This document shows positions 7,219 to 27,567 of a stretch of 64,000 nt of DNA, in pieces. Made by a program: the position numbers and the translations under genes. Below the pieces are notes generated by a model. That model saw only the letters and a list, made by a program, of their open reading frames with translations. It searched no databases and was not told the DNA's origin. Location: the NCBI RefSeq assembly GCF_019973775.1, contig NZ_AP025032.1, positions 2,170,001-2,234,000 on the forward strand, in the 5' to 3' direction. The stretch is from Aureimonas sp. SA4125. Lineage in GTDB: Bacteria > Pseudomonadota > Alphaproteobacteria > Rhizobiales > Rhizobiaceae. The first letter of the stretch is position 1, and each line of letters opens with the position of its first letter.

Positions 7219-9996
7219 CTACTCGGCCGCCGGCTTGGCGACTTTCTTCGGGGCCTTGATGAGGGTCGTCACGACCTGCGCCTTGACCGGCGCGGCAGCG
7301 ACAGGCGCCGCAGGCTTCGCCCGGGCGCTTGTCTTGGCCGCGCCCTCGACAGCCTTCTTCGCGGGCGCCTTCTTGGCCGGAGTCTTGACGACCTTGTCCG
7401 CCGCCTTCTTATCCGCCGCCTTCTTGGCCGGAGCCTTCTTCGCCGGTGCCTTTTTCGGCGCCTTCCCGGATTTTTCCGCGCGTTCGTTGAGAAGAATGAT
7501 CGCCTCTTCCAGCGTCACGCTGGCCGGGTCCTTGCCCTTTGGCAGGGTGGCGTTGATCTTCGCGACGTTCACATAGGGGCCGAACCTGCCCTCCCGCACC
7601 GTGATCTGACCACCGAAATCGGGATGCTCGCCTAGCGTCGCCAGCGCCGCCGGAGCGGCGCGCGCGGCAAAGCGATCCTTCTTCTCGGCGATCACGGTGA
7701 CGGCCCGGTTGAGGCCGACGGTGAAGACGTCCTCGATCGTCTCGAGATTGGCATAGGCGCCGTCATGCTGCAGGAACGGCCCGTAACGGCCGAGCCCGGC
7801 GAGAATCGGCTTGCCGCTTTCGGGATGGAGCCCCACCTCGCGTGGCAGCCGGATCAGCTGCAGCGCCTTCTCGAAATCGAGCTCCGCCGGCAGCCAGCCC
7901 TTGGGCAGGGACGAGCGTTTGGCTTCCTTGCCCTCGCCCCGCTGGACATAGGGGCCGAAACGGCCCGAACGCAGCGTGATCGGCTCGCCGCTGTCGGGAT
8001 CGTCGCCCAGCACTTTCGGCTCGTCGAGCCCGGCATCGCCGACGCCTTCGGCCTGCATGTTGCTGCCGAGCTGGCGGGTGAAGTTGCATTCGGGATAGTT
8101 GGAGCAGCCGACGAAGGCGCCGAACTTGCCGAGCTTCAGGCTGAGCTGGCCGCCGGCGCAGCGCGGGCAGGCGCGCGGCTCGGTGCCGTCCTCCTTCGGC
8201 GGGAAGGCGAGCGGGGCGAGCTCGATGTTCAGCGCGTCGAGAACGTCGGTGACGCGAAGCTCCTTGGTGCCGTCGACCTGGGCGGAGAAATCCTTCCAGA
8301 AATCGCGCAGCACGTCCTTCCAGGCGAGTTCACCCGCCGAGATCCGGTCGAGTTGCTGCTCGAGATCGGCGGTGAAGTCGTATTCGACGTATTTCTCGAA
8401 GAAGTTGTGCAGGAAGGCCGTGACCAGCCGGCCCTTGGAATCGGGAATCAGCCGGCGGTTCTCGTTGATGATGTATTCGCGGTCCTGCAGCGTCTGCAGC
8501 GTCGCGGCATAGGTGGAGGGACGGCCGATGCCGAGCTCTTCCATCTTCTTGATCAGCGAGGATTCGGAATAGCGCGGCGGCGGCTCGGTAAAGTGCTGCG
8601 ACGCCTCGATCGCCCGCTTCTCCGCCGTCTCGTTCACCTCGATCAGCGGCAGGCGTGCCGACTCGTCGTCGTCACTGTCGGCGGCAGGCAGGGCATCGTC
8701 GCGGTGATCGACATAGGCGCCGAGAAAGCCGTCGAAGCGCACGACCGATCCCGTGGCGCGCAGGGTCGCCGTCTTGTCGCCGTTGCGCGCGGCGATGTCG
8801 ACGGTGGTGCGCTCGATGTCGGCCGAGGCCATCTGGCTGGCGATGGTGCGCTTCCAGATCAGGTCGTAGAGGCGTGCCTGGTCGCGGTCCAGATGCTGCT
8901 CGACGTCCTTCGGCAGACGGGCGAAGGATGTCGGCCGGATCGCCTCGTGGGCCTCCTGGGCGTTCTTGGCCTTGCTCGTGTAGATGCGCGGCTTGTCCGG
9001 CACGTATTTGGCACCGAAGGTCGAGCCGATGGCGGCGCGCGCGTCGTCGATGGCTTCCGGCGCGATCTGCACGCCGTCCGTCCGCATATAGGTGATGAGA
9101 CCGACCGTCTCACCGCCGATGTCCATGCCCTCGTAGAGCTTCTGCGCCACCTGCATGGTACGCGAAGCCGAGAAGCCGAGCTTGGCCGACGCTGCCTGCT
9201 GCAGTGTCGAGGTGGTGAAAGGCGGGCCGGGATTGCGCTTGGTGGGCTTGGCCTCGACCGAGGCGACCTTGAAGCTCGCGCCGTCCAGCATGGCGCGGAT
9301 CGTCTCGGCACGCTCGCCGTTCGCAACCGTCAGTCGCTGGATCTTGTCGCCCTCGAAGACGGAAAGGCGCGCGCTGAACTCGTCGCCGCGCGGGGTCGCG
9401 AGACGCGCGCCGATGTTCCAGTATTCCTCGGGCTTGAACCGCTCGATCTCCGACTCGCGGTCGCAGACGAGGCGCAGCGCCACCGATTGCACACGGCCCG
9501 CCGAACGCGTGCCGGGCAGCTTGCGCCAGAGAACCGGCGAAAGGGTGAACCCGACGAGATAGTCGAGGGCGCGGCGGGCCAGATAGGCGTCGACCAGCGG
9601 CTCGTCGATCTGACGCGGATTGGCCATCGCGTCGAGCACGGACTTCTTGGTGATGGCGTTGAAGACGACGCGGCTGACGGGCTTGGTGCCGACGACCTTC
9701 TTCTGCCGCAGAACCTCCAGCACATGCCAGGATATCGCCTCGCCCTCGCGATCCGGATCCGTAGCCAGAATCAGCCGGTCGGCTCCCTTCATCGCCTGGG
9801 CGATCTCGGTCAGCCGCTTCTGCGAGGCCTTGTCAACGTCCCAGCTCATCGAGAAGTCGTCGTCGGGCAGCACGGAGCCGTCCTTGGCCGGAAGATCCCG
9901 GACATGGCCGTAAGAGGCAAGAACCTTGAAGTTCGAGCCGAGATACTTGTTGATCGTCTTCGCTTTTGCCGGCGACTCGACGATGACGAGATCCAT
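7219..9996 (-). CDS. topA: DNA topoisomerase I
   Basis: A 925-residue type IA topoisomerase that relaxes negative supercoils. It has the N-terminal TOPRIM domain (VIVESPAKAKTI, then DPDREGEAISWH) and the active-site tyrosine Tyr303 in ITYMRTDG. A single CxxC-CxxxxC zinc-finger-like motif sits near residue 610. Repeated GxFGPYV-type C-terminal modules follow, then a roughly 90-residue Lys/Ala/Pro tail of KKAPAKKA repeats that probably binds DNA or helps localisation. It is followed by rnr with a 4-bp gap; the topA-rnr order is common in rhizobia. Confidence 0.96.
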   Translation of the reverse strand: MDLVIVESPAKAKTINKYLGSNFKVLASYGHVRDLPAKDGSVLPDDDFSMSWDVDKASQKRLTEIAQAMKGADRLILATDPDREGEAISWHVLEVLRQKKVVGTKPVSRVVFNAITKKSVLDAMANPRQIDEPLVDAYLARRALDYLVGFTLSPVLWRKLPGTRSAGRVQSVALRLVCDRESEIERFKPEEYWNIGARLATPRGDEFSARLSVFEGDKIQRLTVANGERAETIRAMLDGASFKVASVEAKPTKRNPGPPFTTSTLQQAASAKLGFSASRTMQVAQKLYEGMDIGGETVGLITYMRTDGVQIAPEAIDDARAAIGSTFGAKYVPDKPRIYTSKAKNAQEAHEAIRPTSFARLPKDVEQHLDRDQARLYDLIWKRTIASQMASADIERTTVDIAARNGDKTATLRATGSVVRFDGFLGAYVDHRDDALPAADSDDDESARLPLIEVNETAEKRAIEASQHFTEPPPRYSESSLIKKMEELGIGRPSTYAATLQTLQDREYIINENRRLIPDSKGRLVTAFLHNFFEKYVEYDFTADLEQQLDRISAGELAWKDVLRDFWKDFSAQVDGTKELRVTDVLDALNIELAPLAFPPKEDGTEPRACPRCAGGQLSLKLGKFGAFVGCSNYPECNFTRQLGSNMQAEGVGDAGLDEPKVLGDDPDSGEPITLRSGRFGPYVQRGEGKEAKRSSLPKGWLPAELDFEKALQLIRLPREVGLHPESGKPILAGLGRYGPFLQHDGAYANLETIEDVFTVGLNRAVTVIAEKKDRFAARAAPAALATLGEHPDFGGQITVREGRFGPYVNVAKINATLPKGKDPASVTLEEAIILLNERAEKSGKAPKKAPAKKAPAKKAADKKAADKVVKTPAKKAPAKKAVEGAAKTSARAKPAAPVAAAPVKAQVVTTLIKAPKKVAKPAAE

Positions 9997-10169
9997 GCAG
10001 GCGTCCTAGAGTTTGATGACGGAAGCAGTCTGGCGGGGCGGTCATGCCGCCCTCGCTCCGCCACAGCACGCCACACATGGACAGCCAGAGCCGGGGGGTC
10101 AAGCCCTTGCAAGGCGAGCCGATCGGCATACTGCAACCTGTAGACGCGCAACTAATATGGTGCTCTTAT

Positions 10170-10175
10170 AGGAGG
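10170..10175 (+). promoter_or_regulatory. Strong Shine-Dalgarno site of the 106-residue small gene
   Basis: A perfect AGGAGG stands 9 bases before the ATG at 10185. This supports the small ORF as a real gene and fixes its start. A TAATAT hexamer at 10153-10158 could be the -10 element, but a matching -35 is poor. Confidence 0.65.
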
Positions 10176-10184
10176 AACGGCAGC

Positions 10185-10505
10185 ATGGGTACATCGCCGC
10201 CGCCGCGCAGTGGACCAAACTCCATCAAGATGACAGCCATGACGCACGGCACGAACAGAGAGTCGCACAATCTTCGGTACGTCAAGGATATGCTGGAGCA
10301 GCTTAAGGTTGTCGCCCAGGGTGGGGGAAGCCCCTTCCTCGTCTATCTTATCGATCTCGCCCGGCATGAGGCGGCCGAAAAGCTCAGACTGGGGGGAAGC
10401 CCCTTCCTCGTCTATCTTATCGATCTCGCCCGGCATGAGGCGGCCGAAAAGCTCAGACTGGGGGGAAGCCTCCAGTCAGAAGAGCAGGGAAACACGTCCG
10501 CCTGA
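10185..10505 (+). CDS. Small hypothetical protein with duplicated C-terminal segment
   Basis: A 106-residue product preceded by a perfect AGGAGG. The part LRYVKDMLEQLKVVAQ followed by PFLVYLIDLARHEAAEKL looks like a short family of rhizobial proteins of about 70-80 residues with the pattern LRYVxDML..L...A......LxYLIxxAxxEA; that resemblance is from memory and the function is unknown. The segment GGSPFLVYLIDLARHEAAEKLRL is present twice in a row because 69 bp are exactly duplicated. Without the extra copy the protein would be 83 residues. The last 30 bp overlap the 3' end of dprA on the other strand. Confidence 0.7.
   Translation: MGTSPPPRSGPNSIKMTAMTHGTNRESHNLRYVKDMLEQLKVVAQGGGSPFLVYLIDLARHEAAEKLRLGGSPFLVYLIDLARHEAAEKLRLGGSLQSEEQGNTSA
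10328..10465 (+). repeat. Perfect 69-bp tandem duplication (two copies)
   Basis: Bases 10328-10396 and 10397-10465 are identical over 69 bp. The unit is exactly 23 codons, so the reading frame of the small gene is preserved. The third start (AAGCC at 10466) then diverges. Absence of any mismatch implies a recent event or an assembly artefact. Confidence 0.95.
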
Positions 10506-11612
10506 GTGGCGTTCCAGGCGGCCCGCCAGATCCAGTTCGAGCAGGGTCAGGTGAACTGCGCCTGGCGCAGCGCCCGTATGTTCGATCAGATCGTCGATGG
10601 CGACAGGTGTCGGGCCGAGCGCTTCGATGATGCCCTCTCTCTCGTCGTCGGTAGCCGTCGCTGCCATCGCTACCTCTTCCGGCTCTTCCACCTCAAGGCC
10701 GGGACGGTGTTCCAGCCGGCCATCCATCGGACGCAGCGCCTCGATCATGTCGGATGCTTCGGTGACGAGCAGACTGCCGTCCTTCAGCAACTGGTTCGTA
10801 CCGCCCGCCCGCGGGTCGAGCGGCGAGCCGGGAACGGCAAACACCAGTCGCCCCATCTCGGCCGCCAACCGGGCACTGATGAGCGAGCCGGAACGCGACG
10901 CCGCCTCGACGACGAGGAGTCCGAGCGACAGGCCGGCGACGACGCGGTTGCGGCGAGGGAAGTCGATGGCACGGGGCTCCCAGCCGAAGGGCATCTCCGA
11001 GACGAGACAGCCGCCGTCGTCGACGATGCGGCGCATCAGCGGCCGGTTTTCCCGGGGGTAGGGGCGGTCGAGGCCGCCGGCGAAGACGCCGATCGTGCCG
11101 GTCTCGAGGCTGGCGTCATGGGCAGCCGCATCGATCCCGCGCGCGACGCCGGAGACCACGACAAAACCGGCGCGGCCGAGTTCGGCGGCGATGTGGCGGG
11201 CAAACTTGATTCCCGCCAGCGAGGCATTGCGCGCGCCCACCACGGCGACCGTCGGTCGGTTGAGAACGGAGGCATCTCCCATGATCGCGAGAACCGGCGG
11301 CGGGGCGTCGGCGGCCCGCAAGGCCGCGGGGTAGTCCGGTTCGCCGACACAGACGAAGCGGGCGCCGAGCCGCTCGGCCTGCGCCATTTCGGCCTCCGCG
11401 GCCTCCGCGCTCGCGACCCGCACGGACCGCGTCGAGCCGCCTCTCTGCGCCAAGGATGGCAGCGCCTCCAGCGCCGCCTGCGCGCTCCCGAAACGGTTGA
11501 TCAGGGCGCGAAAGGTGACCGGCCCGACATTCTCGCTGCGGATGAGACGCAGCCAGGCGAGACGCTGCTCGGGACCGAGCCGGATGCCGGTCGGGGCATC
11601 CGGCTTGCTCAC
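10476..11612 (-). CDS. dprA: DNA-processing protein DprA
   Basis: A 378-residue protein starting at a GTG that overlaps the plsY stop (GTGA). It contains the Rossmann-like DprA/Smf core with [10 protein letters not shown], the GxxVxSGxARGIDxxAH motif ([19 protein letters not shown]), SEMPFG and [12 protein letters not shown], and a C-terminal winged-helix domain ([18 protein letters not shown]). DprA loads RecA onto incoming single-stranded DNA during natural transformation and is widespread even in species not known to be competent. A longer upstream frame exists but lies inside plsY. Confidence 0.94.
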
Positions 11613-12208
11613 CCCTTGGCTCCGATCTTGCCTTCCGTTCCGGCGAGGAGGCGTTCGATGTTCGGGCGGTGCTTCACATAGACGATGAGGGTCAACAGGC
11701 CCGACAGCAGAGCCGCCGAACGATTGCCGAGGGCGAGGTAGGCGAGGGGCACGACGAGCGTCGCCGCCAACGCCGCCAGCGAGGAGTAACGAAACACGGC
11801 TGCCATCGCGAGCCAGACCACGGCAAAGACCGCGACGCCGATCGGGGCAAAGCCGAGGAGGATGCCGATATAGGTCGCGACGCCCTTGCCGCCCTTGAAG
11901 CCGAGCCAGACGGGAAAGAGATGGCCGAGAAAGGCGCCGAGCCCGGCCGCCGCAGCCGGGTATTCGCCGAATTGCCAACCGATCAGCACAGGAACCGTCC
12001 CCTTCAGGACGTCACCAGCCAGCGTCAGCGCTGCAAGAAGCTTGTTGCCGGTGCGCAGCGCATTCGTCGCACCGATATTGCCCGAGCCGATGCTGCGCAG
12101 GTCGCCGAGGCCGAAAAGGCGCGTCAGCACGAGGCCGAAGGGGATCGTGCCGGAGAAATAGCCGAGCGCGAAAAGTCCCGAGATGGCCAGCCAGCCGCCG
12201 TTCAACAT
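11609..12208 (-). CDS. plsY: Acyl-phosphate:glycerol-3-phosphate acyltransferase PlsY
   Basis: A 199-residue polytopic inner-membrane enzyme that acylates glycerol-3-phosphate using acyl-phosphate, the first step of phospholipid synthesis. The three conserved motifs are visible: the [12 protein letters not shown] motif near residue 42, the [20 protein letters not shown] block near residue 96, and a later segment near the C-terminus. About five hydrophobic segments fit the family. It sits 8 bp after pyrC and overlaps dprA by 4 bp, the usual rhizobial order. Confidence 0.95.
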
Positions 12209-26811: not shown

Positions 26812-27567
26812 TCAGCAGGCGGTCTTACCACAACTGCGGACGTTGGCGATCTTCTCGGCCAAGCCCTCCATGCCGATGGCGCCGGGCACCACCTCGTTGG
26901 CAAGGACGTAGGAGGGCGTGCCGGTGATCTTCAGAAGCTCGGCGATGCGCGCATCCTCCTTCAGCGTTTCCTCGACCTCCGGCGACGTCATTGCCGTGCG
27001 GATGGCCGCTTCGTCGACCCCGAGCTCCTCGGCGACGGTAAGGGCGCTGTCGGCGTTTGCGACGCCCTTCAGCCCGAGGAGCTTCATGTGGAAATCGACA
27101 TAGCGCTCCGGCGCGACATGCCTGAAGGCCAGGCTGACCTGGCTCGCCTCCATCGACTGGGGGCCGAGGACCGGAACTTCCTTCAGGACGAATCGGAGCT
27201 TCGGATCGGCCTCCACCAGCGCCTGCATGTCGGTCATTGCCTTTTTGCAGTAGCCGCAATTGTAGTCGAAGAACTCGACGATCGTCACGTCTCCCTGCGG
27301 ATTGCCGAAGACCGTGCCGGCCGGCGTTGCGAAAAGATTCGGACCGGCCAGCGCGATCGCTTCCTTCTGCTCGGCCAGTTCCTGGACCTGTCGCTTGGCC
27401 TGCAGGGCGTCCATCGCCTCGAGCAGCACCTCCGGATTGCGGATGAGATAGTCCCGGACCACGGCTTCGATGTCGGTCTTTTCGCCCGCGGTGAGGGCCA
27501 TCGCCGGGACGGGGGAAGCCAGGGCCAAGGCTGCGGCCGTCGCGGCGAGGAGAGACTTTCGAATCAA
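26812..27567 (-). CDS. DsbA family protein, secreted thiol:disulfide oxidoreductase
   Basis: A 251-residue thioredoxin-fold protein with a signal peptide (LLAATAAALALASPVPAMAL). The redox motif is CGYC (Cys104-Cys107) in EFFDYNCGYCKKAM, and a cis-proline segment, ITGTPSYVLANEVVPGA, follows. Extra cysteines occur in the C-terminal SCGKTAC. It belongs to the DsbA/ScsC-like class acting in periplasmic disulfide exchange. The start appears to be TTG with an AAGGAA-like ribosome site. It lies 34 bp downstream of the M48 gene on the same strand. Confidence 0.9.
   Translation of the reverse strand: MIRKSLLAATAAALALASPVPAMALTAGEKTDIEAVVRDYLIRNPEVLLEAMDALQAKRQVQELAEQKEAIALAGPNLFATPAGTVFGNPQGDVTIVEFFDYNCGYCKKAMTDMQALVEADPKLRFVLKEVPVLGPQSMEASQVSLAFRHVAPERYVDFHMKLLGLKGVANADSALTVAEELGVDEAAIRTAMTSPEVEETLKEDARIAELLKITGTPSYVLANEVVPGAIGMEGLAEKIANVRSCGKTAC

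Follow-up and report, generated by a model that had tools for sequence, protein, structure and literature searches.

Recent in-frame 69-bp tandem duplication, very probably by slippage, in a conserved small gene at the topA-dprA junction of Aureimonas sp. SA4125

A small gene of Aureimonas sp. SA4125 carries two adjacent and identical copies of a 69-bp unit, which we regard with considerable confidence as the outcome of a recent slippage duplication within a genuine, conserved gene of the topA-dprA junction. The gene lies in a stretch of 64,000 nucleotides that was analyzed as a whole (hereafter the window, to which the positions refer unless another sequence is named), and the coordinates of its features are collected in Table 1.

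The two units are 100% identical in direct comparison, each comprises 23 codons and so leaves the reading frame intact, and GGSPFLVYLIDLARHEAAEKLRL is present twice in the encoded protein of 106 amino acids. According to Tandem Repeats Finder, the periodicity continues up to position 10470 (148 bp, 2.1 copies, 100% matches), the partial third copy that comes after the second unit being 10 bp long. A chance origin of the repeat is ruled out by the exact tandem match of 69 bases. A previous sequence-only reading of this DNA had described two adjacent identical copies of 23 residues each, in frame, as well as a perfect AGGAGG ahead of the gene, and on both points it was right: coordinates and identity of the units agree with this description, and the motif is found 9 nt upstream of the ATG.

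Table 1. Features of the small gene, its repeat and its neighbors (window positions).
Feature	Position	Strand	Basis
Shine-Dalgarno-like site AGGAGG	10170..10175	+	sequence
Small gene, 106 codons plus stop; member of the unnamed topA-dprA family	10185..10505	+	ORF, homologues, synteny
69-bp unit, copy 1; includes helix 2 of the hairpin model	10323..10391	+	repeat detection, structure model
69-bp unit, copy 2; same sequence as copy 1	10392..10460	+	repeat detection
GGGGGAAGCC for the third time; together with its occurrences at 10323 and 10392, the probable repeat of the slippage event	10461..10470	+	repeat detection
topA (DNA topoisomerase I), divergent neighbor	7219..9996	-	ORF; name presumed
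dprA, convergent neighbor, longest ORF	10476..11978	-	ORF; name presumed

The host gene and its place between topA and dprA

The gene extends from its ATG at 10185 to a stop codon at 10503-10505, while the longest version of its frame starts at 10044 and comprises 153 amino acids. A scan with a sigma-70-type consensus yielded no promoter for it. On one side it is flanked by a divergent ORF that we take to be topA, encoding DNA topoisomerase I, and on the other by a convergent ORF, presumably dprA, which shares the 30 bp at its stop end with the small gene and terminates 5 bp past the repeat stretch. The lysine/alanine-rich C-terminal tail of topA has imperfect 15-bp repeats of its own (7393-7457). 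When the neighboring ORFs of the window were used as tblastn queries, topA was found at 22/22 and dprA at 20/22 loci (own locus included), with dprA missing in L014 and L019. A second set, which shares some genomes with the first, consisted of 33 loci, namely the 30 fetched for the best profile matches (own included) together with L019, L021 and L022, and here both neighbors were present at 32 of the 33, the exception being L019.

With the protein of the window as query, a search of 5.8 billion proteins returned itself and four relatives, and a profile built from 18 sequences was passed by 976 proteins, the best 120 of which were listed. Similarity over the core of the family is significant for the protein of the window. 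The family was detected in all six same-genus genomes, in 21 of 60 relatives' genomes when a single sequence served as query, and in 260 of 297 same-family genomes by profile search (own genome included in each case). Some relatives gave several profile matches (five each in G079 and G261, four in G097 and two in G004), which may represent paralogues away from topA. The internal TAG reported in some of the profile matches is the normal stop at the gene end in the three loci that were read (L039, L041 and L052).

The codon pattern points in the same direction. Compared with Aureimonas glaciei, the 41 core codons show 8, 7 and 24 differences at first, second and third positions, the differing codons being synonymous in 19 cases and nonsynonymous in 9, and for two more congeners the counts are 16/9/25 and 12/8/26. 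Such an excess of third-position differences is characteristic of proteins under purifying selection. A spurious ORF is excluded by wide conservation, synteny and third-position bias, and by the same evidence we judge ORF 10185-10505 to be a real gene that belongs to an unnamed family at the topA-dprA junction of Rhizobiaceae-type bacteria. The sequence-only reading had called the gene conserved-looking and counted a lack of homologues among the results that would refute it; homologues were found, and the family proved both real and syntenic. An antisense ORF on the minus strand (10152-10436), which spans both units, was set aside, since family and codon pattern favor the plus frame.

Neither Pfam nor NCBIfam gave a match above the curated cut-off for the protein of the window and the three homologues scanned with it; for the former, the best Pfam score was obtained with DUF6107 (12 bits versus a cut-off of 27), and its NCBIfam matches were weak and far below cut-off. 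Family members are named "hypothetical protein" in, among others, Rhizobium, Agrobacterium, Aurantimonas and Aureimonas records, and a few bear odd automatic names, such as "Metal-sensing transcriptional repressor" (P0106) or "histidinol-phosphate/aromatic aminotransferase..." (P0068, P0069). We had presumed that SMc01364 could be a Sinorhizobium member of the family. The primer table of PMC6843775 gives SMc01364 as topA, and the main text of a small-proteome paper on S. meliloti (PMC10117765), searched by term, makes no mention of topA, dprA, SMc01363, SMc01364 or topoisomerase. A literature search combining topA, dprA, "small protein" and Rhizobium retrieved no paper. From our point of view, the host gene is the more durable point of this analysis: as judged from its homologues it is a widely conserved, uncharacterized small bacterial gene, whose family occurs in 260/297 genomes, next to topA and dprA at nearly all loci checked, and whose four scanned members match nothing in Pfam or NCBIfam above cut-off.

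Copy number, age and origin of the repeat

Each of the 119 other proteins among the best 120 of the 976 holds one core motif and lacks exact repeats of 8 residues within its chain, and the protein of the window alone holds two motifs, in a survey whose candidates were of limited length, such that a much longer multi-copy form would escape it. At the DNA level, 22 loci were parsed for the core motif, which is present twice at the own locus, once at 18 loci (17 distinct places) and not matched by the pattern in 3 of the 21 relative loci; further, the only exact tandem duplication of 15-300 bp at the relative loci among L001-L058 is a 15-bp unit in L024. As the relatives examined are single-copy, the second 69-bp copy is derived and lineage-specific, and as the units show no differences, in contrast to the strong third-position divergence from the nearest relatives compared at the DNA level, the duplication is much younger than those splits. 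On these comparisons we consider the duplication a recent, derived and lineage-specific change, which agrees with the "very recent event" in a conserved gene that had been proposed from the letters alone.

The edges of the units suggest how the duplication came about. The 10-mer GGGGGAAGCC begins each of the two units and recurs at 10461; on the plus strand of the window there is one more copy at 27511, and on the other strand of the window there is none. When one unit is removed in silico, the 10-mer is left twice, 69 bp apart, which is the arrangement from which misaligned replication gives the observed product and thus fits slippage. The parent gene would accordingly have held a single unit with GGGGGAAGCC as a direct repeat on both sides, and misalignment during replication between these two 10-bp repeats would have produced the 69-bp in-frame tandem duplication. 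In Aureimonas glaciei, the exact 10-mer occurs at neither place; a related sequence stands at the upstream position and the downstream position shows no resemblance, from which it follows that the direct repeat probably arose in the Aureimonas lineage of the window. Slippage can be favored by hairpins at the edges of a repeat, and four of the five terminator-like hairpins in the region fall on unit starts, compared with 0.3 on average in shuffles. The unit starts that score as hairpins within the ORF are at 10324-10340 and 10393-10409.

The strongest rival to a slippage duplication, even though we hold it to be unlikely, is an assembly artefact, in which assembly or polishing introduced the second unit. 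The units are perfectly identical, the two-unit form is a single record (cluster P0001, one member), and the 148-bp stretch has roughly the length of a common short read, so that a short-read assembly could err here. Against this, the locus lies inside a 4.97-Mb contig of an assembly of two contigs, which suggests that long reads were used. Moreover, a sample of the own genome was screened for units of 15-1000 bp in exact tandem duplication (80 stretches of 20 kb, i.e., 1.6 of 5.1 Mb, window included, from which duplications across stretch borders escape), and the six rows obtained had units of 15, 15, 16, 21, 21 and 69 bp, with no unit longer than 21 bp in this sample other than that of the 69-bp repeat. 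Both 21-bp rows come from one place of the same genome, where two such exact duplications overlap (L108, 5913-5996). Exact tandem repeats are hence uncommon in the portion of the genome sampled, a result that weighs against a systematic fault of the assembly and not against a local one. The artefact that the sequence-only reading had listed as an option is consequently disfavored as a systematic fault by the sampled 1.6 Mb and the large contig, and keeps its small share of probability as a local error.

Predicted structure and the fate of the second copy

For P0002, a single-copy homologue of 65 amino acids, the structure model consists of two helices (residues 8-29 and 31-58; mean pLDDT 76.7, pTM 0.55), whereas the model of the 106-aa protein has three (21-47, 50-68 and 73-91; mean pLDDT 73.9, pTM 0.43). 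With modest confidence, the duplication would thus turn a two-helix hairpin into a three-helix protein in which the second helix is doubled. The gain of a second such helix had been anticipated from the sequence; the three-helix model speaks for it, with a pTM of 0.43 that allows modest confidence only. Foldseek returned no match at E <= 0.001 for either model among solved structures, and a PDB sequence search with the family profile none at E <= 1. The nearest, non-significant Foldseek matches are Rop-like hairpins and ferritin-like bundles; these matches tell only that a helical hairpin is predicted, and hairpins resemble many unrelated bundles. One could tentatively imagine that the protein, as a small helical hairpin, uses its conserved Leu/Tyr/Met face for self-association or for binding to a partner, and that the extra helix is redundant and probably tolerated, although our confidence in both is low.

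It could be argued that the doubled helix was fixed by selection because it provides a new bundle or binding surface. Frame, tail and a plausible third helix are all kept, as such domain growth would demand, yet the frame is kept one time in three by chance, the model of the 106-aa protein is weak (pTM 0.43), and selection leaves no record in identical copies, for which reasons we consider this highly improbable. Slightly less credit still is given to the idea, also raised in the sequence-only reading, that the locus is variable in copy number, with gain or loss of 69 bp altering the number of helices and hence the partner or the oligomer. The unit keeps the frame and has roughly the length of one helix, and instability would be expected of a tandem repeat this long. 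The relatives give no hint of such a variation: two copies occur in none of the 119 other proteins among the best 120 of the 976, the five other same-genus genomes, all of other species, show one match each in the search of the genus, and in the one of them for which the profile gave two matches (G004) the topA-dprA gene (L009) has only one motif. That a conserved hairpin protein alternates in the population between forms with two and with three or more helices, which differ in oligomer or partner, seems to us equally far-fetched.

Under the recent slippage duplication that we favor, the cell would make a hairpin protein in which helix 2 is present twice, and this product would be tolerated without having been selected for. 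Slippage duplication is an ordinary kind of mutation, and the present instance represents a clean, young case of whole-helix doubling in a small protein, at most a natural experiment.

Comparison with known systems

Of the known small helical proteins, Rop/Rom of ColE1 is the one that the P0002 model resembles, being a two-helix hairpin of similar size with TM-scores of about 0.6-0.8 to Rop chains; the likeness is one of general shape, as there is no significant structural match for P0002 (best E of any chain 0.62) and no PDB sequence match. Closer is the correspondence to tandem duplication by slipped misalignment between short direct repeats, a class of mutation in bacteria that is marked by exact adjacent units, a direct repeat at the edges and a leftover partial copy. 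Exact adjacent units, a 10-bp direct repeat at their edges, a third partial copy left over and single-copy relatives among those examined are all present here, and no difference from this class was seen, while the single-copy parent sequence itself was not found. The small-protein family of the topA-dprA junction, finally, is matched by the window's member in place, orientation, the core of about 40 residues and the invariant residues, from which this member departs in having its second helix twice and an N-terminal part that is longer than in most.
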